This document shows, piece by piece, positions 1,244 through 26,523 of a stretch of 38,909 bases of DNA. The notes below the pieces were generated by a model that saw only the letters and a program-made list of their open reading frames with translations, had not been told where the DNA came from and ran no database searches. The translations under genes were made by a program, and so were the position numbers. The first letter of the stretch is position 1, and each line of letters begins with the position of its first letter. This DNA comes from a virus. The stretch spans positions 1 through 38,909 of the IMG/VR virus record IMGVR_UViG_3300037086_000144, one strand, 5' to 3'.

Positions 1244-3589
1244 ATGCCCGAATCCTCACAGGTAGACAGATTTCTTGACGTCGCAAAGACCGAGCTGGCG
1301 GCGGCTCCTCCCCTCGATCCAAACGCGGCGAAGGTGCCCTTTCCGAGTCCGCTCGTCCTCACCGGGAAGCAGGAGAAGAAGATGCTCGACCAAGCTTTCG
1401 AGCGGTTGAAGGAGCTCGAGCAGGAATCCGGCCGCGATCAAACGCTTAATCCTACTTGGTGGATGAACTTGGCACCGGCGCCAAACCTCATGCTGGCCTC
1501 GCAGGGACTTCTGCCCTCAAACACTTTCCTTGGGAAGCGATCGAGGTACGAAGCCACGTTCGGCAACGATGTGTCGTGGCGCCCCTGGACAATGGGACCC
1601 GACAACATCTTTATGACGTCGAACCTCGTCGTCCCGCTGGCCCGCCGGATCTGTCGGCAGCAGATTGCCAGAGCCAAGAACAAGTTCTTTGGCAGCGATC
1701 CGTGGTTTTCGATCGATCCGAAGCCCGAGCCCTCAACAGAGATCGACGACAAGATGGCGGACCGGATTCAGAACTTCTGCCGGTTCAAGTTGAAGGAGAC
1801 CGACTCGAAGACCGACAAGGAGAGCGCCATCACCCGGGCGCTGATTCTCGGCGAGTGCGTCGTCAAGACCAGCTACGTTGTTCGCGACCAATTCTTTGAC
1901 TGTGAGGCGATGGTCCTCACGGACGTCACCGGCGAGCCGAGCCTGGGCCAGGACGGCAATCATATCACCCAAGATGACCAGTGGGACGAGCAACCGCTTG
2001 CCGACCAGGAGCAGCAGCCGAGCATGCTGGGTAAACTGGGGGCGATGGTGAAGCAACGCACCTTCAACCCGACGGTGAAAGTGCTTCGGCGGGATGGCAC
2101 CACCCAGATGCCGGACGCTCCGATTTGGACAAAGCAGACCTTGCCGCGCCGTCAGATCCTCTTCGAGGGTGCCCGCTCGGAGCCGATCTACTACAAGGAT
2201 TTCCTCTGCCCGCTGACGGCAACCGACGTCCAGACGGCCGATTGCATCGTCCACCTTTACGACAAGCCGGTCATGGAGTTCGTCGACCTCATCGTGAAGC
2301 GCGGTCAAATCCCCGGAGACAACGCCTCCCGCCAGGCTGCCGGCCAGCGGATCGCTGCTCTTGTGCAAAAGCTCTCTGGCGATAGCTCAGCTCCGAAAGC
2401 CGCCGTAACGATGGAGCTCCGGCCAAACGAGAATTTCTCGCCGATTCCAGGGAGCCAGAAGGCCGGAGGCCCGGTTGCGGAGTTTGCGGAGTTCTGCCTC
2501 TGGTTCGATGCGAATGAGGACGGCATCGCTGAGAATATCCTCTTGATCGCCGACCGGAAGAACCAGGCGCCGATCTTCTACGATCATGTCCCGAACGTCA
2601 CCACAGACGGCCTGCGCCCCTTCGAAGTCATCCGGATCAATCCCGTCGAGGGTCGGTGGTACGGTTACGGCGTCATGGAACTCTTCGAGAGCTACCAAGT
2701 TGTCACCGATCTGATGGTCAACCGGTGGAACTTCAGCCAGAGCCGGAGCGGCCGTGTCGACCTCTGGAACCCCACCAACACCATCGAGGGCGACCGAGAT
2801 CCCAACCTCAAGATGAACTGGGGAGGGACCTACACGAAGAAGCCCGGGATGAAGAAGGAGGATATCATCGAGACCGTCTATCTGACGGACACGAAATTCG
2901 AGCAGATCCATGAAATGATCCAGTTCTTCATGCAGTTGGCGATGAACGAGAGTGGCGTCTCGATGGCAAACGACGACCAGGCGGCCGGCATGCAGTCGGC
3001 CAAGCTGGCGACCGGGATTGTCAATGTGCAGCAGTCCGGGGATGAGCTTTTCGACCCGACTGTTTCCGACCTGCGGGGACCGTTCAGCCGACTCCTCGAG
3101 CGCGAGATCCACGTCACGCTGGCGAACATGAACCCAGAGGAAGCCTTCAGTTACCTCGAGGGGGATACGCTGGGTATCGACAAACTGACCCCCGATGACG
3201 TCCGCGGACTGCGGTTCAAGGTCAACATCGAGCTCACCACGCACAAGAATCAGCAGATCATCCAAATGTCGGCCCAAGCGGAGGCCTGCGTGAAGGACTT
3301 CTATTCGCTGCCTCCCGAGATCCAGGTCAAGGTGGCGCCGATGTACCGGAACCATCTCCGGGCGCTCTCTCCGCATACAAATGCCGAGGAGATCATCTCC
3401 CCGATGGTGCCGCTGCCGCCGGCAGGTCCGCCAGCAGAGGGTGGCGAGCCCGGTGAAGGTGCCGAGCCCGGCGAAGCACCGCAGCCTGCCGCTGGCGGTC
3501 CCCAGGCTCGGCCGGCCGGCCCGGGCGGTTCGACCCCATTCCCGACGCAGCTCTCCCAGACGAACAGCCAGCCGAAGACGGCGGCATGA
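1244..3589 (+). CDS. Portal protein (podovirus-like head-tail connector)
   Basis: 781 residues. The protein would form the dodecameric ring at one capsid vertex, through which DNA is packaged and ejected. Support: the size is typical of large podoviral portals; the central region (about residues 425-640) has the portal-like pattern of a polar strand region followed by helices (NPVEGRWYGYGVMELFESYQ, then a long helix from about 540 to 575 and a region ending in LLEREI); and it lies just ahead of scaffold and capsid genes. The last 75 residues are Pro/Gly/Ala-rich and probably disordered. The ATG at 1244 has no Shine-Dalgarno sequence; the leader is pyrimidine-rich (CCCCCTCCGCTT). Portal is the best call on combined content and context, but the exact family was not tested. 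Confidence 0.85.
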   Translation: MPESSQVDRFLDVAKTELAAAPPLDPNAAKVPFPSPLVLTGKQEKKMLDQAFERLKELEQESGRDQTLNPTWWMNLAPAPNLMLASQGLLPSNTFLGKRSRYEATFGNDVSWRPWTMGPDNIFMTSNLVVPLARRICRQQIARAKNKFFGSDPWFSIDPKPEPSTEIDDKMADRIQNFCRFKLKETDSKTDKESAITRALILGECVVKTSYVVRDQFFDCEAMVLTDVTGEPSLGQDGNHITQDDQWDEQPLADQEQQPSMLGKLGAMVKQRTFNPTVKVLRRDGTTQMPDAPIWTKQTLPRRQILFEGARSEPIYYKDFLCPLTATDVQTADCIVHLYDKPVMEFVDLIVKRGQIPGDNASRQAAGQRIAALVQKLSGDSSAPKAAVTMELRPNENFSPIPGSQKAGGPVAEFAEFCLWFDANEDGIAENILLIADRKNQAPIFYDHVPNVTTDGLRPFEVIRINPVEGRWYGYGVMELFESYQVVTDLMVNRWNFSQSRSGRVDLWNPTNTIEGDRDPNLKMNWGGTYTKKPGMKKEDIIETVYLTDTKFEQIHEMIQFFMQLAMNESGVSMANDDQAAGMQSAKLATGIVNVQQSGDELFDPTVSDLRGPFSRLLEREIHVTLANMNPEEAFSYLEGDTLGIDKLTPDDVRGLRFKVNIELTTHKNQQIIQMSAQAEACVKDFYSLPPEIQVKVAPMYRNHLRALSPHTNAEEIISPMVPLPPAGPPAEGGEPGEGAEPGEAPQPAAGGPQARPAGPGGSTPFPTQLSQTNSQPKTAA

Positions 3590-3631: not shown

Positions 3632-4765
3632 GTGCATATCCTTACTCTGTCTGATCGCATCACGATTCCGAGGGAGCCGCCCATCGATCCGGGTGACTAT
3701 CTGCTGACCGACATCAACGCGGCGGATCTCCTCCAGTGGGCCGGCCGGGGTCAGATGCGCCCATTGCCAGAAGGCCGGCCGTTTGACGAGTCAAAGGATT
3801 GGAGCGGCAAAAAGATTCTGTTCATGCGGCCGGGCGGATTCGGCGACCTGATCCTCCTGACGCCAGTTCTGCGCGAGCTCAAGCGGCGCTGGCCGGACTG
3901 CACCATCGGAGTCTCGACGATGAGGCACTACAGTTGTGTTTTCAACGGGCTTCCATTCGTCACCGGCATCCTGCGCTATCCGCTCCCGGTCGCTGAGGCC
4001 AATCAGTTTGACGCATGGATCATGCTGGAAAACGCTGTTGAGTTGAATCCCCGTGCCCGACAGATCCACATGACCGACCTCTTTGCCGAAATCACCGGGC
4101 TTTCCTCGATCCAGGACAAGCAGCCGGCTTACCGAGTGAGCGTCCAAGAGCTCAATTGGTGTCGGGAGCAGTATCCCCGTAAGGCTGGCGTGCGCCGTCT
4201 CTGCGTCGCGCCTGGCGCCAGCACTCCCTCCCGGGTATTTCCGATTCCGCTTTTCGGTGCGGTCATCGGGGAATTCGTCACGAAGGGCTGGGAGGTCTTG
4301 GTGCTCGGGACGCCGCAGGATCTTGGCGATTTCAAGATCAAGCCGCATGAGGGGCTTCGCAACCTCACTGAGTTCAACCACACCTTTCGCCAGAGTTGCG
4401 CGGTGATGAACAACGCCGATTGCCTCCTCGGGAATGATTCGGCGATGGTGCACGTCGCTGGCGCTCTCGGCACGCCGGCGGTGGCGCTCTATGGTCCTTT
4501 CCCGTGGGCGCTTCGCACGGCATACTCTCACAGCGTCACCGCGCTCCAAGGCCGGTGCCCGGTCTCTCCCTGTTTCCATCACGTCAACCTGACCAAGAGG
4601 AACTTCTTCCCTGATAACTGCCCTTCGGCCAGCCGAAACTACTGTGAGGCGCTCGGCGGAAAGATGGATGACAAGGGCAAGCAGGAGGGGGGAATCAGGG
4701 TGTCCAAAATCGCAACAACCATCGAGCTCGTGGCCCGGCGCTTCGAGCCCACCGAAATGCTATGA
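3632..4765 (+). CDS. Glycosyltransferase family 9 (heptosyltransferase-like)
   Basis: 377 residues. GT9 enzymes transfer sugars such as ADP-heptose to lipopolysaccharide core in the cytoplasm. The N-terminal Rossmann domain shows the family signature at about residues 66-83 (RPGGFGDLILLTPVLREL). The C-terminal nucleotide-sugar domain shows CLLGNDSAMVHVAGALGTP followed by ALYGPF. The length fits the family. The first 55 residues are an extra N-terminal extension. The GTG start at 3632 is preceded by GAAAGG, one of the few Shine-Dalgarno-like sites in the window. Its stop overlaps the next start (ATGA), so it is part of the structural operon. A role in changing the host LPS or glycosylating the virion is inference; the acceptor cannot be told from sequence. 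Confidence 0.88.
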   Translation: MHILTLSDRITIPREPPIDPGDYLLTDINAADLLQWAGRGQMRPLPEGRPFDESKDWSGKKILFMRPGGFGDLILLTPVLRELKRRWPDCTIGVSTMRHYSCVFNGLPFVTGILRYPLPVAEANQFDAWIMLENAVELNPRARQIHMTDLFAEITGLSSIQDKQPAYRVSVQELNWCREQYPRKAGVRRLCVAPGASTPSRVFPIPLFGAVIGEFVTKGWEVLVLGTPQDLGDFKIKPHEGLRNLTEFNHTFRQSCAVMNNADCLLGNDSAMVHVAGALGTPAVALYGPFPWALRTAYSHSVTALQGRCPVSPCFHHVNLTKRNFFPDNCPSASRNYCEALGGKMDDKGKQEGGIRVSKIATTIELVARRFEPTEML

Positions 4766-5115
4766 CCCCAGAACAAAGCATCACCCGCGAGCTCGCTAAC
4801 CGCGACCTGGGAGACATTACTCATCTCGAGAGCTCCGACCCATTCAACCGCTATTTCATGCGGCGGCTGAAAGAGAAGAAGGCCGCGATCGAGAAACGCT
4901 TCTACGAGGATCCGCCGGCGAAGGTCGACGCGGCCGAGCGTGAGATTCTGCGGCGCATGCTCCTCGAGTACGATACGCTGATCGAGATGACCACGATCGA
5001 GAAGGTTACCTGCCGCAATCTGATTGAGGATGCAGTCAACGAGGACCGCAAGGAAGGCTTCCGCCAGGGCGACAAGCGCCCGCCTATTCCTGGTCTGCCA
5101 TCTGGCTACGATTAG
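4762..5115 (+). CDS. Small charged helical protein, unknown function
   Basis: 117 residues, rich in Arg, Lys and Glu and predicted by eye to be mostly helical (residues 30-100), with a Pro-rich C-terminal tail. No signal peptide or recognisable motif. Its ATG overlaps the glycosyltransferase stop codon (ATGA), so translation is probably coupled. Its 3' end overlaps the convergent minus-strand gene by 32 bp. It is the last plus-strand gene before the inverted cassette. A small virion or assembly protein is possible, but nothing in the sequence proves it. Confidence 0.7.
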   Translation: MTPEQSITRELANRDLGDITHLESSDPFNRYFMRRLKEKKAAIEKRFYEDPPAKVDAAEREILRRMLLEYDTLIEMTTIEKVTCRNLIEDAVNEDRKEGFRQGDKRPPIPGLPSGYD

Positions 5116-5914
5116 CCGCCGGCTCTGGCGAACGCCGCAGCATCGATCCGTTCCCCTGGCCTTGGTTGCCGAAGAGGCGCTGCACGTAATCGTGATAGAG
5201 GCCGGCGGAGCCGGGATTCGAAAACGTTCGCTCCATTGGGCCAAACCCACCGCTGAAGCTATTGGGCGAGCTCGAGCCGACCGGCGAGGTACTGCCGCGG
5301 CGGTTGACGCCAAAGGCACTCGCGGGATTGAGGGTCGGTGGCGCCGTGATGGTGCCCGTGGGCGCTTCGCCTCCGGTATCCCCAGACAAAGGCGAGTTGG
5401 CCTCGACGGATTGCTTCGCCGGCACCGGCGCGGTCGGCTGGGCTGATGGCCGGTTGGCCGCGGTTGCTGGTTCACCAGGCTTCGCTGTCCACTCCATCGG
5501 ATTCTTCTGATCCTGCATCGCTGGATTGTTGGGCTGGCCAGATACCGTTATCGGAGCCATTGACGCGGCGGTCGGGCCTTTCGGCATGACCTGTGGAGCT
5601 CCGGGTGATGGGCTGGCCGCGGTGCCGACCGGTGCCGCGGCCGGTGCACCCGGCGCGGATGGGGCTGCCGCGGTCGCCGGCTTCGGACTCCTCTTCAAAA
5701 ACGCTTCCCGATCGGCATTCTGCTGGGCAACCAGATCCTCATTCTTGTAGCCGCTCATCGGATCGAGGTCGGGGATGACCCCGCCAGTTGTGCCAGTCTG
5801 CGGGCCCGGCGTGCGGCGCATCGGCGTCTGGCCGGCAAGCGGATCTTGCTGCGGTCTGCCTCGACGAAGACCCATTGTTGGAACCTGCATCCCGGGAGCT
5901 AGAGTTCTGGACAT
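5084..5914 (-). CDS. Pro/Ala/Gly-rich low-complexity protein, possibly virion-associated
   Basis: 276 residues. Most of it (about 80-230) is Pro, Ala, Ser, Thr and Gly-rich and likely disordered. A short N-terminal segment (about 50-75, SGYKNEDLVAQQNADREAFL) and a C-terminal segment (about 225-250, with LYHDYVQRLFGNQ) look ordered. The ATG at 5914 lies 45 bp after the HNH stop, with leader CCCCCTCATAAAATC and no Shine-Dalgarno. Low-complexity linkers like this occur in phage structural proteins, and the neighbouring genes look like virion proteins, but function is unknown. Coding is supported by the orientation and end-to-end fit with the cassette rather than by recognised homology. Confidence 0.6.
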   Translation of the reverse strand: MSRTLAPGMQVPTMGLRRGRPQQDPLAGQTPMRRTPGPQTGTTGGVIPDLDPMSGYKNEDLVAQQNADREAFLKRSPKPATAAAPSAPGAPAAAPVGTAASPSPGAPQVMPKGPTAASMAPITVSGQPNNPAMQDQKNPMEWTAKPGEPATAANRPSAQPTAPVPAKQSVEANSPLSGDTGGEAPTGTITAPPTLNPASAFGVNRRGSTSPVGSSSPNSFSGGFGPMERTFSNPGSAGLYHDYVQRLFGNQGQGNGSMLRRSPEPAANRSQMADQE

Positions 5915-5959
5915 GATTTTATGAGGGGGTTGCCTGTCGGAAATTCGGCATAGTAGGGT

Positions 5960-6793
5960 TTAGCGGCCAGCGCGAGCCTTTTGGGTGTCGGCAGACTTGA
6001 TCGGAGCAAGAAAATGGCCTTGGCCTGATTTGTCGAAGAAGCCGATACGCCTATTCCCCTTCTGAATGTTCTCTGGTTTCTTCATCGGAACTAGATTGGA
6101 TAGCCTCCAACAGTCGCGGAACGCAGTCGAATCCATATTGGAGTAGTGGAAAAGTGATTGGGGTACCACATGGTCTACTTGCCATTTCCGGCCGTAATTC
6201 TCCCATGTGAATCCGTTCTGGTTGTCAAAAAACGATTCCAAATGAGCCTTAAGCTGCGGGATTGAATAAGGAAGGTATCTCGCTATAGATCCGCACTTCT
6301 GGGCGCGATTTTTACGGAGGGCCCGCCAGATCGTCTTGCTGACGATATTGCGCAAACGGAATTCTGGATCGCGTTTTGTTTTCTCACGCAGAAACGCATT
6401 CCGCCTAGTCTTGAATGCAGGGACCTTGGCTTTTTCTCGACCGCCTCTCTTTCGTCGGTCTGCACGGCATTTTTCAGAACAAATATCGAAACGGTCATTG
6501 GCGGGATGAAATGGCGTTCCGCACTCAATACAGATTTTCTGGAGCGTCCCATTCCTCAAGGCCCGTCTCTGTTTGTTCTGTTTGGAGACCTTTTTCCCAT
6601 GATCCTTACGCTGCTCCGGACTCATCTCGTGATAGTGCTGGAAGCTCCGTCTTTTTATCTTTTTCGATCGGCATTCTTGAGAACAAACCATCTTTCTCGC
6701 TTGGTGGGGACCACGAGAAAAGCTAGTTCCACATTCGGAACAGATCACCATTTTAGGATCGGGCATCGTTCGGTTTTTAGCCAGGCTTTCCAT
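5960..6793 (-). CDS. HNH homing endonuclease with N-terminal zinc fingers
   Basis: Up to 277 residues. Two Cys4 zinc-finger-like units come first (about residues 18-41, CxxC then CxxxC, and a second starting near 87 with CIECGTPF). Then there is a basic linker and a C-terminal HNH nuclease domain with WQVDHVVPQS as its His-containing catalytic strand. The block before it (IPQLKAHLESFF...GFTW) matches a block in the endonuclease at 21440-22021, so the two share a nuclease lineage. Such proteins cut intron-less or allelic targets to spread their own gene. Three starts are possible: 6793, 6766 and 6751. The last gives an ATGGTGA junction with the upstream gene's stop and begins just before the first finger. 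The gene is visibly more AT-rich than its neighbours, which suggests recent arrival. Confidence 0.88.
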   Translation of the reverse strand: MESLAKNRTMPDPKMVICSECGTSFSRGPHQARKMVCSQECRSKKIKRRSFQHYHEMSPEQRKDHGKKVSKQNKQRRALRNGTLQKICIECGTPFHPANDRFDICSEKCRADRRKRGGREKAKVPAFKTRRNAFLREKTKRDPEFRLRNIVSKTIWRALRKNRAQKCGSIARYLPYSIPQLKAHLESFFDNQNGFTWENYGRKWQVDHVVPQSLFHYSNMDSTAFRDCWRLSNLVPMKKPENIQKGNRRIGFFDKSGQGHFLAPIKSADTQKARAGR

Positions 6794-7092
6794 CTACCGC
6801 AACCGCAATTAGGATGCTTACATTTGCCGATTCCCCAACGTGCATCACCATCCCAGAATTCACATGCCTCGCAGGTTGCAAAGCGTGTTTCGTATTCTTC
6901 TGCGTTGACCGTCTTAAAGCCCGCGGCGCCCCATCGGGCCATTGCCACGGCAAAATTAGCCGCCATCTCAATCCTCGTGGGCGGCTCCGGCAGCGCCGGC
7001 GGACGAGTGATGATGGGCGGCGGTTCTGCCTGTTCTGGTTGCGGACCGTAATCCGGCCGGTGGGTCGAGACATTAACAATCGTCGCTATCAT
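6745..7092 (-). CDS. Small Cys-rich protein, probable zinc binder, unknown function
   Basis: 115 residues. The first 45 are Pro-rich. The C-terminal half holds a six-cysteine pattern: C74xxC77, C91, C96, C98 and C110, ending in ERCPILKW. Small proteins with a CxxC...CxC...CPxxKW tail occur beside tail genes in many phages, but I know of no defined function. The ATG overlaps the preceding gene's TGA (ATGA at 7089-7092), so it is coupled to the large repeat protein upstream. A metal-binding structural or assembly role is inference. Confidence 0.75.
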   Translation of the reverse strand: MIATIVNVSTHRPDYGPQPEQAEPPPIITRPPALPEPPTRIEMAANFAVAMARWGAAGFKTVNAEEYETRFATCEACEFWDGDARWGIGKCKHPNCGCGRWKAWLKTERCPILKW

Positions 7093-9098
7093 TGGTAAAG
7101 ATAGGTGTCATAGCCTCGGAGATTGGGAACATCGACGATGAGTTCGAGGTTGCCGAGAGCATCGGAGGTCCCGCTAATCAACATCGTCTGGTAGGCGACA
7201 TATGGATTGATCCCGTAGACGCGGCGCATGACGTGCAGTTGAGTGAAGTACATCGGGCTGGGCTGGAGACTGGCCCACTCAGCCTTCCACTGGGCTTCCT
7301 CGTAGGCGAATGAATCGCCGGACGTCCGGATCTGGTACGAAGTCAAACAGCAAGCGGACGGGAGACAGGTGCCTCCGGTGCCATCTCCGACCGGGTTCCA
7401 AGATCCCCAGACGCCGCCAGCGCCAGCCAGCAGCCGACCAATCGCATCGGTTTCGGTGTCCTCATCGCTAAGGGTTTCCGTGACCGTGCCGACGACTTTG
7501 ACGTAGGGAAATGGATCATCGTAGGTCCGGGCAGAGAGGACACAGGTGTTATTCCCGGTGAGTGTCCTCGTGGTGGCGGTCTTGGTCTCCGTCGTCGCGC
7601 CGGCGCCGATGCAATAGTCCGATTCATCCGGTCCGATTGGATCGACAACCCCGTCCACCGTCCGGAGGTTATTGTTGACCGTCGTGAAAGAGCAATCGAC
7701 CGGACTATATTGCCGAGTATAGTCCCAAGTGTCCGTGGTGTTGTCGTTGAGCAGAATGACGCAATTCGTGACGTAGGTATCGTAGCCCTTCAGATTCGGG
7801 ACGATCTGATCGTTGATCGCGAGGTTGCCCGAGCCGTCAGTCGTCCCACTGAGCACGAGCGTCTGCAGGAGTGTGAAGGTGCCGGCGCCGTAGGGGCTGC
7901 GATAGACGTCGACTGTCACATGGTAGGTTTTGCTGTTCGCCAGCCCGCTCTTGGTGATGTTGTACTTGGACTCCTGATAGTTGAAGGCGGCCGTCGTGCG
8001 CTGCTCGTAGCGAGCCATGCACCACGTCGAGCTCTGGCAGGTTGAGGAACCGCCCCAGGCGGGCGAGGTTGCGAGCCAGCGGTTGATCGCGTCAGTCTCG
8101 CTATCCGGATCAGTCAAGACCGCCTGCGAGGTAATTGTGTTGAAGGCTCTCGCGCCACCACCCTGACCATCCGGCACGCAGCCGGCATCAGTCAGCGCCC
8201 AGACGGTCTGCGTTTTGCTCTCTCCCGCGAAGCGGCCCCAGTTGAGCGGTCCATCATTGACGCCATGCGCGCTGGTGCCCGAAGGGTTGCAGGGCGAGGG
8301 ATGGGTATATTGGCCGTCATTCTCAACGATGGTTCCCGCGGCATTCCACGCATAGGCTCCGCTCTCCGTCAACACACAGATGTTGTGTGCTGAGGTGCAG
8401 CCGAGATCATTATACATGTGGTTGCTTGTTGCACCGCTCCACGTCTTCCGACGGTAGAAGTTGGGCGGCGAGGAGGGGCTCGCGAATTCGGCATGCCCGA
8501 TGAGAGCCAGGAAGGCTCCCCGCTTCACGCCATCCATGTTGCCCGGTGTCGTCGGCTGGTCGCAAGTGTTGTCCGGCGAACGGATGAAATTCATCGCGCC
8601 ACTCTTCACGCGACGGCGGTAGAATCTCGGTGGCGTGCTCACATGGCCGGAGAATTCTCCCACGCCGCACATCTGCGCCGTTCCTCCGCGCTGCCGGCAA
8701 CTGATATCCGTGGAGGGAGGCAACCAGCCCCACGGCACGCCAGGAGGCGGCGGATTGTCGGGAAGCGGCCAGTCCGGAAGCCCGGGCGGGTGTTTCCACA
8801 TCTCGCCGACCAGAGACCAATGGCGAATCAGATCCTTGCCGGCTGCCTTGTACTCCTCGGGGAAGCCGCCCGGGCTCCCCGCAGGAGGCGGTTCTCCGCC
8901 GCCCACGCCGATCTTGTAACCAGGATCGGGGATCAAACTATCGATGCCGTCCTTCAGGAACGATTCGACGAATTCCCGCGATTCACTACTCCCGCCAAGG
9001 CCGTGCGCTCCCTTCGACCGCGATCTCTTTAACCGCTTAACTTCCTCGAATTCTGTGTCGATGAAGTTTGGAGTATCGCTGTCTTGCTCGAGGCTCAT
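7089..9098 (-). CDS. Large repeat-bearing virion-type protein, probable tail/host-contact component
   Basis: 669 residues from the ATG at 9098, chosen because it forms an ATGA overlap with the upstream gene; a longer frame begins at 9245 but would overlap that gene by 150 bp. After an acidic N terminus and a Pro/Gly-rich linker (about 60-130), there is a short duplicated block (PPRFYRRRVKSGA and PPNFYRRKTWSGA, about 156 and 211). Two long repeats follow, about residues 333-443 and 548-666. Each runs from an (S/T)ETDAI(N/G)R motif through a Cys pair to a PNL(K/R)GYDTY motif. The protein is Cys-rich and beta-rich by eye. Repeat-built, extracellular-looking proteins like this fit a tail fibre, spike or receptor-contact role, but I do not recognise the family. 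Confidence 0.78.
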   Translation of the reverse strand: MSLEQDSDTPNFIDTEFEEVKRLKRSRSKGAHGLGGSSESREFVESFLKDGIDSLIPDPGYKIGVGGGEPPPAGSPGGFPEEYKAAGKDLIRHWSLVGEMWKHPPGLPDWPLPDNPPPPGVPWGWLPPSTDISCRQRGGTAQMCGVGEFSGHVSTPPRFYRRRVKSGAMNFIRSPDNTCDQPTTPGNMDGVKRGAFLALIGHAEFASPSSPPNFYRRKTWSGATSNHMYNDLGCTSAHNICVLTESGAYAWNAAGTIVENDGQYTHPSPCNPSGTSAHGVNDGPLNWGRFAGESKTQTVWALTDAGCVPDGQGGGARAFNTITSQAVLTDPDSETDAINRWLATSPAWGGSSTCQSSTWCMARYEQRTTAAFNYQESKYNITKSGLANSKTYHVTVDVYRSPYGAGTFTLLQTLVLSGTTDGSGNLAINDQIVPNLKGYDTYVTNCVILLNDNTTDTWDYTRQYSPVDCSFTTVNNNLRTVDGVVDPIGPDESDYCIGAGATTETKTATTRTLTGNNTCVLSARTYDDPFPYVKVVGTVTETLSDEDTETDAIGRLLAGAGGVWGSWNPVGDGTGGTCLPSACCLTSYQIRTSGDSFAYEEAQWKAEWASLQPSPMYFTQLHVMRRVYGINPYVAYQTMLISGTSDALGNLELIVDVPNLRGYDTYLYQ

Positions 9099-10891
9099 AC
9101 CGGCAGGGCGGCTTGGGTCGGAGCCACGCAGGAGGTCACCGTCTTGCGATACCATTTCGTGCCATTGGTCTCGGTGAACGCCAGCTCGAGGCTGTAGTGC
9201 ATCGTGTAGGTGTTCCCGTCTGGCGCAACTGGTCCGCCGTAGCAAGTCAGCGTTCCGGAGCTTCCGCCGAAACAGGTATTCCCCAGCATCGTGCCGCCGT
9301 TGTAGTCAAGCGAGCCGAAGGTGTGAGAGATCGGGGTGGCGTCGACCGACCGGTAACCACGCAGCGCGGTCATGCTGAATTTCGGGTAGTTGCCGATCCC
9401 CACGTAGGAGGCTTCCACCGTCGCCCAAGTGCTCGGGGCCCAGAGGGTGCCGACGGTGCCGAGCGTGGCGCTGGTCTGATAGGTCACGGTCACCAAGAAG
9501 TCTACCGGGACCTCGACGGGTGGGCTGAGGAAGACGTCGAGTGCGGTCCAATATCCGATTGTCTTCGCGTAGGATTTCGCCCGCCCAGGCATCGGGAAAC
9601 TCCCGAGTTTGTGCTGGGTATAGTTGACAGCCGAAGGATCGCTGCTGCCGTCCGCCGATTGGATCACGCTGACCGTGTAGATCGTATACCCAGCATCAAT
9701 GTGGTAATCGTCACGGATCACGATGCCTTGGGCCGGCTGAATCCGGGTGCCCAGAGAGATATCTGTGACCTCGCGGGTGCCATCGTTCTTCGCGACGATG
9801 TTCTCGGAGATGAGACCGTGACCTTCAGCCCACTTGTAATCATAGATGATCGTGCCGTCCTCGAACCGGGAGCCGTTGCGCTGCGATGAGGAGATCAAAA
9901 CCACGGATCCGCCAAGCGTCGGCGAGGGTGCGCTCGGCACCGCATTGATCGACGTGATTGAATAGACGACAGCGCGGCCGTTGTTCCGAACGACGGTATC
10001 CGAGGCGATGATTCCTTGGCCGTGGGCATAGGTTGCGCTCCAGATCCGGTGACCGTCGCTGTCCTCGTAGGTGACGGCGATCAGCTCCGTGCTCGCCGGC
10101 GGAGAAATGGGGTTAGAGCTAACGCTTGGATCACTGAGCTGCTTGATCTTGTAGACCGTGCAGCCCGTTGTTCCCTGATCTGGCGAGAGCCGATATTCGA
10201 TATCGAGGGAAATCTGGCCGTTGCCTTTCGCGAAGGCGTAGGTCCGGACCGGCAAACCGCCGGGATACTCTACCTTCTGCGAAATATTGATGTATCCGGC
10301 GGGCGTCGGCGGGACGTCGTTGACGTAAACCAAGGTGCGCAAAAGTAGAGCTCCGTCATTGCGCGTTTCGTCAGATTGACTAATCAATCCGTGGTTTATG
10401 AAGTCACGTTTTATCCTTCTGAGTGTGCCATCATCTGTTCGCGATTCAGTTTTAAGGACACATTGCGTCCAAGGTGCAGAAGCTAAAGTTGTCCCAGGCA
10501 CTCCATATACCGCTGTTCCAGTAGAAAACTGTAGGTAGTTCTGGGATACAGTGATAAGTCCATCTTGGCCAATGGCCACATCAGCATTCCCAACGACCGT
10601 CTCAAGAGCAGAATCTATTTGTTCAAAGATGCGGGTGAGTACGGCAGGGCGGCTTTCGGGACTTTGCTTCGAATCTCCTAGGGGCTCCTGGCCGGCGACA
10701 TCCTGCTTGATGAGCCTCGTGTCCGTGTATTTCTCGTCAATCGTACCCCAAGGAAGCCAAGCCAACGCAAGAATCTCAGCCGGAGTTTTTACGGCGGCCG
10801 GGAGTGCATCGTACTTTCGCGTCACCCGAAGACGCAAGTCTGGTAACCGTTCTACGGTCGGCAGGCGATTCCTAAGATCGAGAAAACTCAT
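9095..10891 (-). CDS. Tandem-repeat beta-rich protein, probable tail structural protein
   Basis: 598 residues. Residues 1-100 form a helical/mixed head region. From about 146 to 380 there are four degenerate repeats of roughly 45 residues. Each has a DG or GG turn, an aromatic-rich strand, a G-x-G-x-I segment (HGLISQ, NGQISL, QGIIAS, HGLISE) and mostly an N-(D/N)-G turn before another strand. The C-terminal 200 residues are beta-rich, including an FGSLDYNGGTML segment. This is the build of a fibrous or shaft protein. Both ends are stop/start overlaps (ATGA), coupling it to the GIY-YIG gene before and the 669-residue protein after. Function as a virion tail or fibre component is inferred from repeats and neighbourhood. 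Confidence 0.78.
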   Translation of the reverse strand: MSFLDLRNRLPTVERLPDLRLRVTRKYDALPAAVKTPAEILALAWLPWGTIDEKYTDTRLIKQDVAGQEPLGDSKQSPESRPAVLTRIFEQIDSALETVVGNADVAIGQDGLITVSQNYLQFSTGTAVYGVPGTTLASAPWTQCVLKTESRTDDGTLRRIKRDFINHGLISQSDETRNDGALLLRTLVYVNDVPPTPAGYINISQKVEYPGGLPVRTYAFAKGNGQISLDIEYRLSPDQGTTGCTVYKIKQLSDPSVSSNPISPPASTELIAVTYEDSDGHRIWSATYAHGQGIIASDTVVRNNGRAVVYSITSINAVPSAPSPTLGGSVVLISSSQRNGSRFEDGTIIYDYKWAEGHGLISENIVAKNDGTREVTDISLGTRIQPAQGIVIRDDYHIDAGYTIYTVSVIQSADGSSDPSAVNYTQHKLGSFPMPGRAKSYAKTIGYWTALDVFLSPPVEVPVDFLVTVTYQTSATLGTVGTLWAPSTWATVEASYVGIGNYPKFSMTALRGYRSVDATPISHTFGSLDYNGGTMLGNTCFGGSSGTLTCYGGPVAPDGNTYTMHYSLELAFTETNGTKWYRKTVTSCVAPTQAALPV

Positions 10892-11658
10892 GCTGCTATA
10901 TTCCGGTCGATTTCAGACGGATTCATCCCCAGATTACTAATGATCCATCGGTTTAGGGCATATCTTTGCTTGTGGGATAAACTCATTCTCATGCGCGTTT
11001 CGACTGAAGCCTTCTTACCCTTGCGTGCTAGACTGATCTTGTCTCGGCTGGTCATGGAATGCTTTCGACCAGTCCAAGTAGCGATCGCTCTTATCGAGAT
11101 TTCCCTCGAATGTCGTCTGCCAGCAATGCGCATCTTCTCCTTTGTGGCCTCAGAGACAGAATGACCGTGATGAGCTAGACCCATTTTTTTACGAGTTTCT
11201 TCGCTCGCTATCCTTTTCTTTGCCGAATTACTCATTCGTTCCCTGGTAATCGGATTTGCGAGAGCAGCTCTTAGTTTAGTTTTTTGTCCTTCCGATAGCT
11301 TTGTTCCTAAGGTCGATCCAGCCAAAGGAGCTATATTGTAGCCCGTTTTGGGGTCCGCAGTTTGGAACTGAGTAATAAAGAATTGCTCGCGTCGGATACA
11401 ATCAGCCGGTGGGCATCGCTCTAGGATAGCGAATTCAAAGGCCGCTTCTCCATCCCTATCCCATGCCCGCTGGAGATGAAGGCTGTGATGCTTCCCGTGG
11501 CGCAGATGATTTCTGTGTACCGCCCAGCGGTGACTGAAACCGCTTGCTGCACTCCCGATGTACCTCTTGCCGTTTAGGGTATTGAGAATGCAATAGACTC
11601 CAGTCTCGATCACACCGGACATGGGCAACGGAATCGCGCCAAAGTCATTGAAAGGCAA
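10888..11658 (-). CDS. GIY-YIG homing endonuclease with NUMOD3 repeats
   Basis: 256 residues. The N-terminal nuclease domain shows GVYCIL, then RYIGSA about ten residues later, a downstream Arg (HRWAVH) and a Glu (LERCPP, RREQFF), as expected for the GIY-YIG fold. From about residue 113 there are several NUMOD3-type DNA-binding repeats (LGTKLSEGQKTKL, GHSVSEATKEKM, GRKHSMTSRDKI, GKKASVETRMRM) and a C-terminal basic segment. This is the classic arrangement of phage freestanding homing endonucleases. It is the first gene of the minus-strand cassette and its stop overlaps the next start (ATGA). A second Met at residue 13 is an alternative start, just before the nuclease domain. AT-rich compared with its surroundings. 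Confidence 0.92.
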   Translation of the reverse strand: MPFNDFGAIPLPMSGVIETGVYCILNTLNGKRYIGSAASGFSHRWAVHRNHLRHGKHHSLHLQRAWDRDGEAAFEFAILERCPPADCIRREQFFITQFQTADPKTGYNIAPLAGSTLGTKLSEGQKTKLRAALANPITRERMSNSAKKRIASEETRKKMGLAHHGHSVSEATKEKMRIAGRRHSREISIRAIATWTGRKHSMTSRDKISLARKGKKASVETRMRMSLSHKQRYALNRWIISNLGMNPSEIDRNIAA

Positions 11659-11715: not shown

Positions 11716-12918
11716 ATGTCAGAGACACCCGCCCACGCGGAGCCCGCTGGGACCACCGCACCGACAGCTACTCCGGCAGCGGCAACACCCGCAGCCAGTT
11801 CTTTACCAAGTCAGGACGCAGATTTTGCGAGACAGATTGAGCAGGCACACACGCCGGCTGAAATCGCAGGAGTCTTGCAGAGCCTCACCAAGAGGTCTCC
11901 CGCACCACCTCCGCCGAAGCCAGCCGAGCCAGCGCCGGCGCCAGCCGAACCCACCGCCGGGGAAACCCCCGCAGGCGAGACCCCGGCCGAGACCCCCGCT
12001 GAGACGCCACCAGGCGAGGAAACGCCTCCCGCTGAAACACCAGCGGAGACGCCAGCCGAGCCCGCGGAGCCAGAAGAGCCGGCCGAACCGAGCGAGACTG
12101 ACCGGGATGCCCCCGTCACTCCGAGCACGGCAAGGAAGATCGGTTTGAGGCTCCCCGAAACCGACGAAGTCGGACGCCTAGCCACCGCCTTTATGAGGCG
12201 GAACGCCGATTGGACGCTGGAAGAGGCGATGACCGCCGCCAAGAAACAGCTCGGGATCAAACCCAGCACGGCAGCGGCACCAGAAACCCCAGCGGCACCC
12301 AAAGACCCGGATCTTCCGGACACCATCGAAGCGGTTGACGCTAAATTGATGGAGCTCGAGGAAGGTCTGGACAAGGCGGCTGAGGAGCTCGACACCGTCA
12401 AGGAGGCGAGAATTCACCGGCAGTTGAGGAAACTCGACCGTCACCGGCTCAGTCTTCAGGCACAAGCAGCCCAAGCAGAAGCGACTAACCACACCGCCTA
12501 CAATCGGGAATTCGACGCCTCGCAGACGCGAGCGGTTGAAGTGTATCCTTTCGCGGGAGACCCGAAGAGTGAAGGTGGCAAGTTGATGGTGGAGATCGAG
12601 GATGCCCTCGAGGCAACTCAAGACCCTCGGTTTCATCACCCCAACAAGCCGTACCTCGTGGCACAGATGGCCGCTATGGAATTGGGTATTGCGCCTCGCA
12701 GAACAGGAGCGCCCGCCGCGCCGGCAAAGCCCGCGGCCACAGTCCCGGCGGCTCCAGGTCCCCGGAAGGGCATCCTCCCGTCCGGTTCAAGCCGAACGGC
12801 GGTACCAACGGGTACGAATCCAAACACGGAGTTCGCGAAGGCCATTTCAGCGGCGAAAACACCCTTGGACTTGAGGCGAGCGACAGAGAAGCTCGGAATC
12901 AAGCTTCCAGGCATGTAG
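11716..12918 (+). CDS. Scaffold-like capsid assembly protein
   Basis: 400 residues, directly ahead of the major capsid gene, which is the usual place for a scaffold. The N-terminal third is extremely Pro/Ala/Glu/Thr-rich (residues 60-135, repeated AETPAE units). A helical, heptad-like stretch follows (about 200-260, EAVDAKLMELEEGLDKAAEEL onward in short form), then another Pro/Ala linker. The last 30 residues form a basic helix (AKAISAAKTPLDLRRATEKL), as in scaffolds whose C-terminal helix binds coat protein. No protease domain is visible. It starts at ATG 11716 with no Shine-Dalgarno sequence. The call rests on position and build, not on sequence identity. Confidence 0.7.
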   Translation: MSETPAHAEPAGTTAPTATPAAATPAASSLPSQDADFARQIEQAHTPAEIAGVLQSLTKRSPAPPPPKPAEPAPAPAEPTAGETPAGETPAETPAETPPGEETPPAETPAETPAEPAEPEEPAEPSETDRDAPVTPSTARKIGLRLPETDEVGRLATAFMRRNADWTLEEAMTAAKKQLGIKPSTAAAPETPAAPKDPDLPDTIEAVDAKLMELEEGLDKAAEELDTVKEARIHRQLRKLDRHRLSLQAQAAQAEATNHTAYNREFDASQTRAVEVYPFAGDPKSEGGKLMVEIEDALEATQDPRFHHPNKPYLVAQMAAMELGIAPRRTGAPAAPAKPAATVPAAPGPRKGILPSGSSRTAVPTGTNPNTEFAKAISAAKTPLDLRRATEKLGIKLPGM

Positions 12919-12995: not shown

Positions 12996-14480
12996 ATGAG
13001 CTGGGATATCGGCACAAACAACACAGCGACAGCCCTTGCCGCGCTGTCCCCTGACTCTGTCCGCATTTTGTGGCAGAAGCAGGTCGACGTCTTCGAGCAG
13101 ACCGAAGACTTTTTCATGCAGTTCGAGGGGACCAATCGGGACTCTCCAATCTTCGTCATCAACGACACCGCAGCCGGCAAGGGCCTCAAGTTGCGGATCA
13201 CCAGCCGCGCCGGGTACTATGGCCCGGGCAAGAGCGGCGACGATCTGTTCGAAGCCAAGGAAGACTTCGAGACGGACGTCATCAACAGCATGGAGGTCGA
13301 TGTGGACTTCCTGCGCAACGCCGTCTCGATCACCGAGCGGACCGACGAGTTCATGGGTATGGTCGGCGAGCTGGCTTCGGGCCAGACCATCGAGCTCGGC
13401 AAGTGGATGGGCCGCGAGAAGACCGCCCGGATCATGATGACCTACATTCTCAAAGGCGGCGGCGAGAATCTCCTCATCGGCGGCGGGCACGCCAGCCAGG
13501 ACAGCATCGTCACAGCGGACGGCCTGGTCTACAACGATATCCTGTTCATGGGCCAGGCGCTCAAGCCGTTGGGCGGCGCCCCCTGCGAGACGGGAACGGT
13601 GCGCGGCGTGCCGGTCCTCAAGTATTGCGTGGTCGGAGTCACTCCCGGCCTCTTCAGCCTCAAGCAGGACTCGGACTACAAGCTGATCATCAAGGACGCG
13701 ATGCCGCGTGAAAAGTACGACGAGAATCCGCTGTTCACCGGTGGGTATGCGGAGCTCGACGGGCATTCGATCCGCGAGTACAACCCGATCGACCATGACG
13801 GCTACGGGCCGGTCGGCAGCGCCTTCAATCCGAAGGCCTTCCTTGGGGGCGCGATCTCGGCCGGCACGGCGGCATTCGATCTTCTGGGCGGTGGTTCGGC
13901 CGCCGCGGCAGCCCTCACGAAGATCCAATACTTCCGGTTCTTCCCCAACTACGCGTTCGAGTTCCTCCCGAGCGACATCACCACGCCGGCGACGGCGCAG
14001 CAATACCTCCTGGTCGTCAATCCGAAGAATGCCACGGTCGATCCGGGCAAGGTCGGAATGTACGGGTTCACGACCGGCAACAACGGCAACAAGATCACCG
14101 TGAACCTGCGCCTGGCGCCGCTCACGAATGGTCCGGTTGCCGAGCAGACGGTGGGCAATGTGACCTGGAATACCGGAGTGTGGGCCAACCGCCACACCCA
14201 GACGCACCCCATCGGGGCGACGGTGTTGCTCTGCAACGCGAACGGCGTGCCGATCGGCGACACGATCATGTTCGGTGCGCGGAACATCGTGCGCGGCTAC
14301 GGCAGCATGCGCAACAAGCGCACCCAATGGCTCGTGGACGGCGATTTCGAAACCCGCAAGTACATCACGTCTGTCTTCGGGCAGGCGCTCCGGAAGAACG
14401 TCCGGAACGTGTACCCGGGCTACGTCCGCCTCCGCCACGCCCTCCACTATCCGGAGCTCGGTCTCCCGGTGGTGGTCTGA
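12996..14480 (+). CDS. Major capsid protein, N4-gp56-like
   Basis: 494 residues; forms the icosahedral shell (HK97-like fold). Pattern support: an early segment with RILWQKQVDVFEQTEDFF, a conserved-looking GLKLRITSRAGYYGPGKSGD region, a helical stretch (about 105-150) with ERTDEFMGMVGELASGQTIE, and a C-terminal GARNIVRGYG block. This resembles the N4-gp56/DUF4043 group of podoviral coat proteins. It is followed by a very strong terminator, as expected for a gene needing high expression. Codon use is strongly GC-biased at third positions, which also produces a long false antisense reading frame. The start is ATG 12996 in an AT-rich leader (CCATTTCAAAAC). Confidence 0.85.
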   Translation: MSWDIGTNNTATALAALSPDSVRILWQKQVDVFEQTEDFFMQFEGTNRDSPIFVINDTAAGKGLKLRITSRAGYYGPGKSGDDLFEAKEDFETDVINSMEVDVDFLRNAVSITERTDEFMGMVGELASGQTIELGKWMGREKTARIMMTYILKGGGENLLIGGGHASQDSIVTADGLVYNDILFMGQALKPLGGAPCETGTVRGVPVLKYCVVGVTPGLFSLKQDSDYKLIIKDAMPREKYDENPLFTGGYAELDGHSIREYNPIDHDGYGPVGSAFNPKAFLGGAISAGTAAFDLLGGGSAAAAALTKIQYFRFFPNYAFEFLPSDITTPATAQQYLLVVNPKNATVDPGKVGMYGFTTGNNGNKITVNLRLAPLTNGPVAEQTVGNVTWNTGVWANRHTQTHPIGATVLLCNANGVPIGDTIMFGARNIVRGYGSMRNKRTQWLVDGDFETRKYITSVFGQALRKNVRNVYPGYVRLRHALHYPELGLPVVV

Positions 14481-14506
14481 GTAGTTTGGGAGAGTAGTGC
14501 TCAACC

Positions 14507-14895: not shown

Positions 14896-15606
14896 ATGCT
14901 GACAATTACGCAGGTTCGGGATGACCTCCTGAGCAAACTCAATATCGAGGATGCGACGCTCGCCACGGCGCTGCAGCTTCAGGACGTCGTCATCGCGATC
15001 AACGGGGCAATGCAGACGCTCCAGGTCGCCGGCCAGGACTTTTTCACCCGCGAGAAGCTGACCATCGGGTTTTCCGCCGGAACGGCGATGTACCCGATCA
15101 GTCAGACGATTCAGGCGGTTATCGGGCCCGTCCGGCTCAACGACAGTCAGCCCTTGCGGGCGCTCGGCAGTCGCGGCGAGCTCGACCAGTTTGACCGAAT
15201 CTTTCGCGGCGTCGCCGACTACGGAGCAGCCCAAGGCGATCCGATTGCCTACTGGGTCGAGAACATTCGTTACCCCGCCGGCCCGGACGCCAATCAAATC
15301 AATATCTGGCTGGCGCCAGTTCCACTCAGCAGCGGCTCGCTCGTTATCGAAGTCGTTAAGGATGCTCCTGCCTACGACGTCGCCGCGCTCGCCGGCGGAA
15401 CTGCTCTGCCGGTGGCGCAAGCCTACACGGAATCGATTTTCCTTCCGATCGCCAGGATGCTCATTACTCGATCCAGCCTCTTCAGCCGGCCGGATATCGT
15501 CGAGGGGCTCACGGCTGATTATCAACTCGCCATCGCTCGACTGGCTGCCGCTGGCGGCTTCCCGAACATGGCTCAACCCGAACCGCCGAGGGAGGTCACC
15601 GCATGA
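14896..15606 (+). CDS. Head-tail adaptor-like protein 1
   Basis: 236 residues. It opens with a helical segment of the adaptor type (MLTITQVRDDLLSKLNI, then ALQLQDVVIAINGAMQTL), followed by a beta-rich middle (about 60-150) and two C-terminal helices (about 175-220). This alpha-beta-alpha layout and the position after portal and capsid genes fit the podoviral adaptor/tail-tube proteins that sit under the portal ring. Its stop overlaps the next start (ATGA at 15603-15606), and the next protein has a similar layout. The adaptor call is by context and architecture. Confidence 0.65.
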   Translation: MLTITQVRDDLLSKLNIEDATLATALQLQDVVIAINGAMQTLQVAGQDFFTREKLTIGFSAGTAMYPISQTIQAVIGPVRLNDSQPLRALGSRGELDQFDRIFRGVADYGAAQGDPIAYWVENIRYPAGPDANQINIWLAPVPLSSGSLVIEVVKDAPAYDVAALAGGTALPVAQAYTESIFLPIARMLITRSSLFSRPDIVEGLTADYQLAIARLAAAGGFPNMAQPEPPREVTA

Positions 15607-20257: not shown

Positions 20258-20983
20258 ATGAACAGAAGATTTAAGATCATCTGCGCAAATTGTGGATTAC
20301 CAGTCGTGAGAAGTAACCCGGTGCAGACTTGTTCATTCGAGTGTCGCTCCGCGCTGCAACTGAAGAAACTTATACGACAGAATCCCGTTGCACAATGCCC
20401 GGTCTGTGGAGAAGACAGGCATCTTATCTATCGCGCAAAATTACATAGAGTCTGTAGCAAGAAGTGTGCGGCGACCATTTACGGAAGATACCAGCACAAT
20501 CTGAAGCTGACGCTTCCCCCTCGGAGTAAGGATTATCCGTGTAAGTTGTGCGGCACTCCATTCTCACAGAAACGCCCGAATGAATACTTCTGTTCCTCCA
20601 AGTGTTTCGACGGATGGCGTTATCTCCATAAGAAAAAAGATCAAATTGCCAAAAGGCGTGAAGCTCGCTATCAAGCAATGAGCCCGTGCGCCCTTTGTGG
20701 GGTGGATTATCAAACAATCTTAACAGCTAAATGTCTCGGCTCGCGAATGCACCAGCAAAAATTTGTCAAAGATCACATTCTTCCTCGGTCGCACGATGGA
20801 GACGATTCCCCCGATAACTTGAGAAATCTTTGTTGGTTCTGCAATACAGCACGTCGAGATATCTCTTCTGATTATGATAAGGCGATTGCGGCAGCAGGAA
20901 AGGCATTTTGGGATGAGATACGCAAACTGGCTACAGGCACGTCGGTTCCAGTAATCCCGTCAGACGGTATCGCTATTTGTTGA
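20258..20983 (+). CDS. HNH homing endonuclease with three zinc fingers
   Basis: 241 residues. Three Cys4 fingers are readable: C9/C12/C25/C29, C47/C50/C66/C70 and C95/C98/C112/C116. A basic helix (about 120-140) links them to a C-terminal HNH domain with CALC at 144-147, KDHILPRSHDG at 171-181, the N187/N190 region and CWFC at 192-195. The treble-clef HNH with its DH pair should be catalytically intact. It begins 8 bp after the tail-fibre stop and is markedly AT-richer than its neighbours, typical of a freestanding homing gene inserted next to its target allele. Confidence 0.9.
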   Translation: MNRRFKIICANCGLPVVRSNPVQTCSFECRSALQLKKLIRQNPVAQCPVCGEDRHLIYRAKLHRVCSKKCAATIYGRYQHNLKLTLPPRSKDYPCKLCGTPFSQKRPNEYFCSSKCFDGWRYLHKKKDQIAKRREARYQAMSPCALCGVDYQTILTAKCLGSRMHQQKFVKDHILPRSHDGDDSPDNLRNLCWFCNTARRDISSDYDKAIAAAGKAFWDEIRKLATGTSVPVIPSDGIAIC

Positions 20984-24804: not shown

Positions 24805-26523
24805 GGGTTTCGGTGGGAGGCTGGTCCGGACAAAGCCATCGCCGACTTTGGCAATCAGATTTTGGCGCTCGCATTCACTCTGCATCTCGTCCCAGAAGCT
24901 CGGTGTGTGGGCACCCCCGGTCCGTGCTTCCTTGAGGATTACGTGGATACTCTTGGGCGGGCTGCCGGGATTTGGGACATACGCGAGGAAGCGCTCGAGG
25001 CTATGGCCGATCGTCAGTTTTTGTGTGGCCGCTTGCTTCTTGCCGGTGCCATTCGTGCCCACTCCTTCGCCGTCATGCTCCCAAACGACCAACTGACGTT
25101 CACGGCCGCCGACCTTCATCTTGCCGGTTGAGTGCTTCAGGTTGATGTGGGTGACCGGCTGGAGGGTGTAGCCAGCGCCTTGCGCGACCTTCTTCACAAG
25201 GCCGGCGTTCATCGCACCCTTGCCCAGGCGGAGCACGTAATGGCCGGTCTCGTCGGTCGGCTGGAGGAAACAGGAACCCCGCGGCCAGTTCGCCCAATAG
25301 GAGGAGCCGATGCCCATGTAGATCGCCTCCCAGTCCTGCATCTCGTCGTACTGCTTGCCATCGGCACCAGGCGGTTTCCCGGTGTGGTGGACGATGAAAT
25401 ACGCGGCATGCCGGTCCGCGTTCACCTTCTCCAGATTGGTGATGGCCCGCTGTGCCGCCTCCGACTTCGAAATGTCTCCTTCGGCGTAAAGGTAGAGCGG
25501 GTTGATGCCGATGACGTCGGGATTGTGCATCCGCTTCAGGCGCTCAAGTTCCCGGTAAAAGTCCGGTCCGGTGCAGCCGCGCAGCGATTTAACGATGACG
25601 TTCTTCTTCAGCAAAGCCTCCTCGTCCGCCGTCAGTTTATTCACGTAGGCGTAGCTGCCGCGGATTTTGCCAAGGTAGCGGTCGCTGTCCTCGTGCTGGA
25701 TGATGAGGCTCTTCAGCGGCCCGGAGCACCGCAGACCGTGCCAGGGGCGCCCCAGCGCCCAATCCTGGCACATATCGAGCTGCAAGGGGCTCTTGCCGGA
25801 TCCGGTCACACTCACGAGGAACAGCGCGCCGCCGCGGCCGACGAAATCCTCCCCGCCGATCAGAATGTCTGGATCATCGTCCGCCGGATAATTGAAGTCG
25901 GTGATGGGCCTGCCGTGGTCGATCTGGCGTCCGGCAGAGGCATCAACGACTGTCTGTAGCTTCTTCTGCTGGTTGTCGAGAAATTCATCAATGTCGCCGG
26001 TAAACTGGAAAGCCTGCTCGACGGCGGCGGTGTTGGCCTTGATCGTTTCGCGCAGGAGCCAGAGATCACGAACCTTGCTGATGAAATAGGTGGCTTCTGC
26101 CGTCGTTGGGATCTTGGCAGTAACTCCCATGATATAGGGTATGCCACCGATCGACTCGAGTTGCTTTTGATCTCTGAGCTCCGAAATGAGGACCTCAAAC
26201 GAGACCGGCAGCTTAGCATCCTGTATTTCACAGAGCCGCGCATAGATGATCTGATTGGCCGAATGATAGAACGCGGCCGATGGGATCTTCGCTTGGCGGG
26301 CCCGGGTCAGTGTATATCCGTCATCAAGCAAGCAAACCGAGATTAAGTTCTCCTCTGCATCGAAATTGTGCGGTGGGGTGCGTCCACCGCCGCGGTCTTG
26401 GCGTTGGTCCTGCGGCGTGATGGCCGGACGATAGCCGGTCGTGGTTATCGGCTTGGCGACGGCCGGCGACGGTATTGGCGGCGGCTCGTCGTCTCCCAAG
26501 TAAACGCAATCGCTTTCGCTCAT
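24787..26523 (-). CDS. DnaB-N-domain / RepA-like (AAA_25) replicative ATPase
   Basis: 578 residues. After a disordered N terminus, residues about 52-165 resemble the DnaB N-terminal helical domain (HNFDAEENLISVCLLDDGY, then a GGIPYI motif). Residues about 215-440 form a RecA-type ATPase: SVTGSGKS at 238-245 is the P-loop and IIQHEDS at 274-280 the E-D block typical of RepA-like hexameric helicases. A C-terminal helical domain follows, possibly a winged helix. The P-loop has Ser in place of the usual first Gly. It probably unwinds DNA at the phage fork. The start overlaps the helicase stop (ATGA); it is the last gene of the replication operon. Confidence 0.82.
   Translation of the reverse strand: MSESDCVYLGDDEPPPIPSPAVAKPITTTGYRPAITPQDQRQDRGGGRTPPHNFDAEENLISVCLLDDGYTLTRARQAKIPSAAFYHSANQIIYARLCEIQDAKLPVSFEVLISELRDQKQLESIGGIPYIMGVTAKIPTTAEATYFISKVRDLWLLRETIKANTAAVEQAFQFTGDIDEFLDNQQKKLQTVVDASAGRQIDHGRPITDFNYPADDDPDILIGGEDFVGRGGALFLVSVTGSGKSPLQLDMCQDWALGRPWHGLRCSGPLKSLIIQHEDSDRYLGKIRGSYAYVNKLTADEEALLKKNVIVKSLRGCTGPDFYRELERLKRMHNPDVIGINPLYLYAEGDISKSEAAQRAITNLEKVNADRHAAYFIVHHTGKPPGADGKQYDEMQDWEAIYMGIGSSYWANWPRGSCFLQPTDETGHYVLRLGKGAMNAGLVKKVAQGAGYTLQPVTHINLKHSTGKMKVGGRERQLVVWEHDGEGVGTNGTGKKQAATQKLTIGHSLERFLAYVPNPGSPPKSIHVILKEARTGGAHTPSFWDEMQSECERQNLIAKVGDGFVRTSLPPKPSAPAA

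Follow-up and report, generated by a model that had tools for sequence, protein, structure and literature searches.

Gene order and the GT9 enzyme

The window (that is, the whole stretch of DNA that was analysed) is a linear fragment of 38,909 bases from an uncultured phage. It carries on the plus strand a portal gene of the SU10 type (1244..3589), recognised by PF23899 (SU10_portal, 33.5 bits) and by 15 related loci. After a gap of 42 nt follows, on the same strand, a gene for a family-9 glycosyltransferase, GT9 (3632..4765; 377 amino acids, GTG start, TGA stop), which we define by its open reading frame, a PF01075 match, a structural model and fold matches. Its stop codon overlaps the next start as ATGA (4762-4765), and the coupling of the two genes proposed in the initial annotation is borne out. 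The coupled gene (4762..5115, plus strand), which we call family 5, is a small conserved gene of 117 amino acids for which we found no family match.

Further downstream lie a block of genes on the minus strand (5084..11658), a probable scaffold gene (11716..12918, plus strand) and the major coat gene (12996..14480, plus strand; PF13252 and phrog_334). The scaffold gene was named only by its position ahead of the coat gene, and the Pfam search gave no family match for it. GT9 had been described as located between the portal and the coat genes. The portal is directly upstream and the coat is downstream, but the latter is 8.2 kb away, with the 117-aa gene, the minus-strand block and the probable scaffold gene in between, so that the description is true only loosely. 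That GT9 is expressed late we infer from its gene position.

The minus-strand block holds the family 4 gene (9095-10891; 598 amino acids, beta-rich) and two homing-endonuclease-like ORFs (5960-6793 and 10888-11658, both on the minus strand); a third such ORF is found on the plus strand (20258-20983). One of the three is a GIY-YIG enzyme by Pfam and two are HNH-like by eye. Their GC content is low, 0.47-0.49 as compared to 0.57-0.66 in the other genes measured. We considered the family 4 product as a lead to the acceptor of GT9 and dropped it: the model was poor (pTM 0.39) and the viral Foldseek matches were meaningless.

The product of the GT9 gene matches the PF01075 profile (Glyco_transf_9) with 61.1 bits (E = 1.4e-16, cut-off 22). 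The same profile is matched by all 23 phage members of an alignment that we denote A2 (E <= 1), while a smaller alignment, A1, holds 9 nearer relatives. The PHROG matches of the protein were weak and carried no name. The GTG start at 3632 is supported by the first two residues, "MH", which are invariant across A1; several of the A1 members use a GTG start as well.

An AlphaFold2 model of the protein, calculated with 23 viral sequences as input, reached a pLDDT of 89.6 and a pTM of 0.89. Its fold matches in VIA were a Veillonella GT9 (3tov, Z 26.5), E. coli WaaF (25.1), WaaC (22.5) and TibC (22.0), and the top rows of both Foldseek and VIA were the 3tov, 1psw and WaaC entries. According to this model, the enzyme has a GT-B fold and is similar to WaaF and WaaC; a profile comparison with WaaF gave E = 3.7e-19. 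It shares with these LPS heptosyltransferases (GT9; PDB 1psw, 2gt1, 2h1h, 6dfe) the predicted fold, the aligned catalytic Asp and the DSxxxH motif. On the other hand, it has about 57 extra N-terminal residues and a longer four-cysteine loop, is only about 20% identical to them, and belongs to a viral clade and to the context of a virion operon. Proteins of uncultured Caudovirales that are annotated as GT9 in BFVD (e.g. A0A6J7WHE7, "RfaF") are also viral and have the same fold, and the top match among them is 21% identical.

Three sites are invariant in all 23 members of A2. Asp72 (plus strand, 3845..3847, within GGFGD) is aligned to WaaF, at the place of Asp13 of WaaC and WaaF, the catalytic base in these enzymes. 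Arg201 (plus strand, 4232..4234) aligns near the basic residue of WaaC and WaaF that binds the donor phosphate. The DSxxxH motif (Asp269-Ser270...His274; plus strand, 4436..4453) is aligned to DSGLMH of WaaF and belongs to the ADP-sugar site. The dN/dS ratio of the gene was 0.15-0.28 in five of six pairs of relatives, while for the sixth pair dS was not computable. Given the fold, the invariant catalytic residues and the dN/dS values, the gene is real and under purifying selection and, judged by the conserved residues, its enzyme should be active. The family assignment of the initial annotation is thus confirmed by the profile match, the WaaF/WaaC-like fold and the intact catalytic residues.

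The N-terminal extension (approximately residues 1-57; 3632..3802, plus strand) is predicted to form a strand-strand-helix-strand domain. It is kept across the phage family (A1 and A2), and its pattern PGxYxxxDxxAAQLL is recognisable throughout A2. The VIA alignments of 3tov, WaaF and WaaC begin only at model residues 54-60, which leaves the first ~57 residues outside the core. No Pfam match above the cut-off covers this domain. In cellular members of the viral GT9 clade described below, the profile match includes the very start of the profile (1-356 in G036 and 1-346 in G037), and therefore the domain marks the clade. A second feature is a stretch with four cysteines (Cys309, 314, 330 and 338; 4556..4645, plus strand), where all 23 phage members have at least four. 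A version with a shorter loop and four cysteines is also found in three of the four ordinary cellular GT9s that this pattern retrieved, so that the stretch is not diagnostic of the bacterial autotransporter heptosyltransferases (BAHT; TibC/AAH), which heptosylate proteins.

Still, the combination of a core like that of GT9 with an added N-terminal domain and four cysteines in one stretch resembles TibC/AAH. TibC is a protein heptosyltransferase which requires an N-terminal barrel and an iron finger for its activity; the barrel is a beta-barrel of 97 residues, as compared to ~57 residues with a helix in our protein, and the cysteines are spaced C-x2-C-x15-C-x11-C, as compared to C-x4-C-x15-C-x7-C (PMC4358343). 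When VIA aligns the model with TibC, the match starts at model residue 25 or 36. The profile match between the two proteins is not significant (E = 0.4, versus 3.7e-19 to WaaF). We treat this resemblance as a lead only. The iron finger of TibC as a proof of a protein acceptor was dropped, the four-cysteine stretch being common to ordinary cellular GT9s.

Distribution and descent of the GT9 gene

A scan with the portal yielded 15 related records. GT9 was found in 11 of these, and the four records without it are fragments of 4,142 to 16,076 bases. In a wider set it was present in 31 of the 35 records searched, most of which had been found by means of GT9 itself. For 23 relatives both genes could be located; in 19 of them (15/18 if near-copies are removed) GT9 adjoins the portal or sits between portal and scaffold. 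The four remaining ones (G002, G003, G007 and G012) have GT9 away from the portal, which means that the gene need not be part of the virion operon.

In two relatives (G009 and G013; L013:10299-15914 and its near-copy L017) the genes from family 4 to GT9 form a block that lies between portal and scaffold in the opposite orientation to that of the window. An active invertible switch was considered and rejected: no pair of inverted repeats flanks the block in L013, L017 or the window, and for this reason the inversion reads as an old rearrangement. In the records G007 (61,666 bases) and G002 (66,085 bases) the matches of the family 4 gene run over both ends of the supposedly linear sequence, so that each is probably a complete genome, circularly permuted and about 62-66 kb long. 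Two fusions were also seen, namely a protein of 722 amino acids with two GT9 stretches (L046:9845-12013) and a GT2-GT9 fusion of 526 amino acids (L038:11020-12600), the latter directly after the GT9 gene of the same locus.

Among 50,697 records of isolated phages, the portal had no match, and GT9 had two weak partial matches only, both in Campylobacter phages (26% over 33%). Genome contigs were scanned twice for the lineage; the first scan confirmed none and the second gave 5 loci. One Verrucomicrobiota genome (G283) contains a related phage contig, and two others give weaker portal matches (3 of 387 genomes in all). For Verrucomicrobiota as possible hosts this is binning-level evidence only.

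The initial annotation had seen a hint of a separate origin in the Shine-Dalgarno sequence of GT9, which was thought to be the only good one. The best anti-SD pairing of the gene is -4.2 kcal/mol. This value lies within the background of the window, in which random 19-mers have a mean of -2.9 and 5% reach -7.0, and four genes on the same strand pair more strongly (-12.1 for the gene at 15603, -7.3 at 14497, -6.5 at 16989 and -5.7 at 11716). The composition of GT9 (GC 0.606, GC3 0.748) is close to that of the portal (0.607 and 0.793). Furthermore, the GT9 and portal distances between 15 phages are correlated (Mantel r = 0.835, 0 of 9999 permutations).

For the GT9 tree we started from 66 non-redundant GT9-like ORFs and removed six (the L038 fusion, L109, L118, L111 and the near-copies L065 and L047), which left 60 rows. 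In this quick tree, with several long branches and viral rows picked by query similarity, one clade (SH-aLRT 98) unites 32 viral with 6 cellular rows. This clade is separate from the outgroup of 22 ordinary cellular GT9s, which come from Verrucomicrobiota, Zixibacteria, Chloroflexi and Riflebacteria only. The window is the sister of L003 (support 95). It does group with a viral family, but one of no known function, so that the outcome named in the initial annotation as a refutation (a widespread group of phage proteins with another, known role) did not arise.

The six cellular rows are sporadic and belong to one Verrucomicrobiota genome, four Zixibacteria genomes and G404. At E <= 1e-30, a GT9 of the viral clade was found in 2 of the 387 sampled Verrucomicrobiota genomes. 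The chromosomal gene in Verrucomicrobiota (L051) is flanked by fumarase-like and queE-like genes, and those in Zixibacteria (L052, L053, L122 and L123) are chromosomal and lie by dnaG (both by eye). A methyltransferase-like gene follows GT9 in L053 and L123, and a similar gene is found downstream of GT9 in phage L090, which suggests an exchange between phage and cell. One more Zixibacteria copy (L134) lies in what by eye is a prophage-like tail locus and was counted as viral.

GT9 is, then, a long-resident gene of a lineage with an SU10-like portal, and it is inherited vertically with this portal. The idea of a separate origin did not hold up, as the Shine-Dalgarno argument was wrong, the composition is native, the gene diverges together with the portal and it groups with viral GT9s. 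A recent capture from an LPS locus of the host was rejected on composition, portal co-divergence and the tree. With a sampling biased towards the query, the gene may have been transferred in either direction between phages and cells, but a recent capture from a host is not supported.

Glycan genes beside the terminase of relatives

The terminase of the relatives was identified as phrog_24361, and the region upstream of it is covered in 11 records (G002, G003, G004, G007, G008, G009, G011, G017, G020, G023 and G024). In every one of these, two GT2-type genes (GT2a and GT2b) stand directly upstream of the terminase. They are part of a string of genes that also includes a GNAT acetyltransferase (10/11), a large transferase named from weak matches and from its place (10/11), a Methyltransf_24 domain, either alone or fused to the large transferase (7/11), an FkbM-like methyltransferase (7/11, two of them weak) and a further putative transferase of 243 amino acids without a family match of its own (6/11). 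In Pfam the GT2 genes score weakly, some of them below the cut-off, but PHROGs also classes them as glycosyltransferases. A simple hydropathy scan found no transmembrane segments in GT9 or in the string.

GT9 is tied to this string by the record G002 (L030), where both lie on one strand, with 650 bases between GT9 and the string's first gene. More distant phages with GT9 have similar partners: GT2 genes in L038, L041, L046 and L077, methyltransferases in L038, L041 and L042, and a PLOD-type transferase together with FkbM in L039. Conversely, a 63-kb contig from a Verrucomicrobiota genome, with a portal 40% and a terminase 43% identical, has neither GT9 nor the string. The window itself contains no GT2 and no Methyltransf_24 genes within its 38,909 bases, which start downstream of the terminase region; its record is truncated on the upstream side of the portal, and the string is thus inferred for this phage from its relatives.

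GT9 is thus among the core genes of a glycan set that these phages carry. What is new here is the retention of GT9 across the lineage and the conserved glycan string on the terminase side in relatives. In the literature, searched largely at the level of catalogue entries, we met no description of a string of GT9 plus GT2 in this lineage.

Possible acceptors of the glycan

We see even chances that GT9 takes part, with other enzymes, in a pathway of glycan assembly encoded by the phage, and that this pathway most likely decorates the virion rather than the LPS of the host. Phage-encoded transferases adjoin virion genes, as GT9 lies by the portal in 19/23 relatives and the GT2 pair by the terminase in 11/11. 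It is this position among packaging and head genes, together with the precedent in mycobacteriophages, that makes us favour a virion protein as the acceptor. Since the relatives carry a set of sugar-building genes by a packaging gene, it is probable that the viruses synthesise a sugar coat themselves, most likely one for the virus particle.

As for the precedent, two reports describe covalent glycans on the capsids of the mycobacteriophages Che8 and Rita (PMC11256854) and on phage capsid and tail tube (PMC12619734). There, as here, the transferases are encoded by the phage and the glycan is proposed to be attached to virion proteins. Che8 and Rita belong to an unrelated lineage, however, and they apparently use other enzymes; moreover, the glycan was measured there and is inferred here (PMC11256854, PMC12619734). 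The transferase genes of Maravista are located towards the 3' end of its genome (PMC11256854), whereas in our lineage they lie beside terminase and portal.

If virion decoration is the correct reading, soluble enzymes would, probably late in infection, take nucleotide sugars from the host cell, and GT9 would add one sugar, perhaps a heptose or another sugar carried by a nucleotide. The enzymes of the string would then extend, methylate and acetylate the chain, possibly in this order, to give a short modified glycan that head or tail proteins would carry. The methyltransferase and the GNAT of the string could, on the other hand, have unrelated substrates. A more specific proposal is that the whole lineage has its own virion-glycan pathway in the packaging and head operon, in which GT9 with its extra N-terminal domain would be directed at proteins and act, similarly to TibC, on a head or tail protein, while the GT2 pair, the large methyltransferase-transferase fusion, FkbM and GNAT would extend and cap the glycan. 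We regard this version as speculative and rather improbable as a whole.

Both roles suggested by the initial annotation, remodelling of the host surface or decoration of the virion, survive as proposals, and the stronger evidence is the conserved string by the terminase of relatives, that is, outside the window. Remodelling would mean that GT9 and the string of transferases alter the surface of the infected cell (the LPS core or another envelope glycan) and thereby block superinfection or the re-adsorption of released virions. WaaC and WaaF, the nearest solved relatives of known activity, are soluble cytoplasmic enzymes acting on LPS, so that the missing membrane segments are compatible with an LPS acceptor. 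Moreover, the rare chromosomal relative in Verrucomicrobiota (L051) and the four Zixibacteria genomes with a GT9 of the same clade indicate that this type of enzyme can serve a cell. However, most relatives have the gene among those for packaging and head, and this, together with the methyl- and acetyltransferases of the string, fits a dedicated glycan better than a single core sugar. The clade occurs in only 2 of the 387 Verrucomicrobiota genomes at E <= 1e-30, hence GT9 is not a copied standard LPS enzyme. Weighing these points, we give remodelling of the cell surface an appreciable but minor chance.

Two further explanations appear much less probable. Phage glycosyltransferases have been reported to glycosylate modified DNA bases (PMC12619734), and the family 27 gene of some relatives reads by eye like a cytosine-5 methyltransferase, so the transferases could in principle glycosylate modified bases of the phage DNA. 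Yet among 22 records, which may be incomplete, the Tet_JBP domain was found in none (the control genomes gave no positive over the cut-off either), and a hydroxymethylase of the thymidylate-synthase type in only one, the distant relative G033. GT9 itself matches enzymes of the LPS type and not DNA glucosyltransferases, and we consider this explanation highly improbable. The lowest probability, next to negligible, we give to GT9 as a late cargo gene (a moron) of recent bacterial origin and without a role in the phage's own life. GT9 is a bacterial family, and the nearby homing-endonuclease ORFs demonstrate that foreign DNA can enter this region; but a moron is hardly compatible with the native composition of the gene, its co-divergence with the portal, its near-universal presence, its virus-dominated clade and the purifying selection.

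The glycosyltransferase genes of phages are frequently regarded as auxiliary strays. In this lineage, GT9 and the string behave like core genes: they are found in nearly every member with enough sequence, they are inherited with the portal and they lie by packaging genes. Should the virion be what they act on, then a second, unrelated group of phages would join the few with glycosylated particles, and the question would arise what a glycan coat is good for in phages of soil and water that do not meet any immune system. The GT9 subfamily with the extra N-terminal domain is a test case for acceptors that are proteins rather than LPS.

The window also contains two genes with apparent insertions. 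The helicase ORF (26520-30335, minus strand, 1271 amino acids) appears to hold two inteins, with C...HN|C and C...GN|C boundaries seen by eye. Within the first of these, on the same strand and in another frame, there is a cysteine-rich endonuclease-like ORF (28862-29614), so that two frames may be in use over the same stretch. The gene for a DNA-methyltransferase-like protein (30242-31624, minus strand) seems, by eye, to carry an in-frame LAGLIDADG-like insertion.
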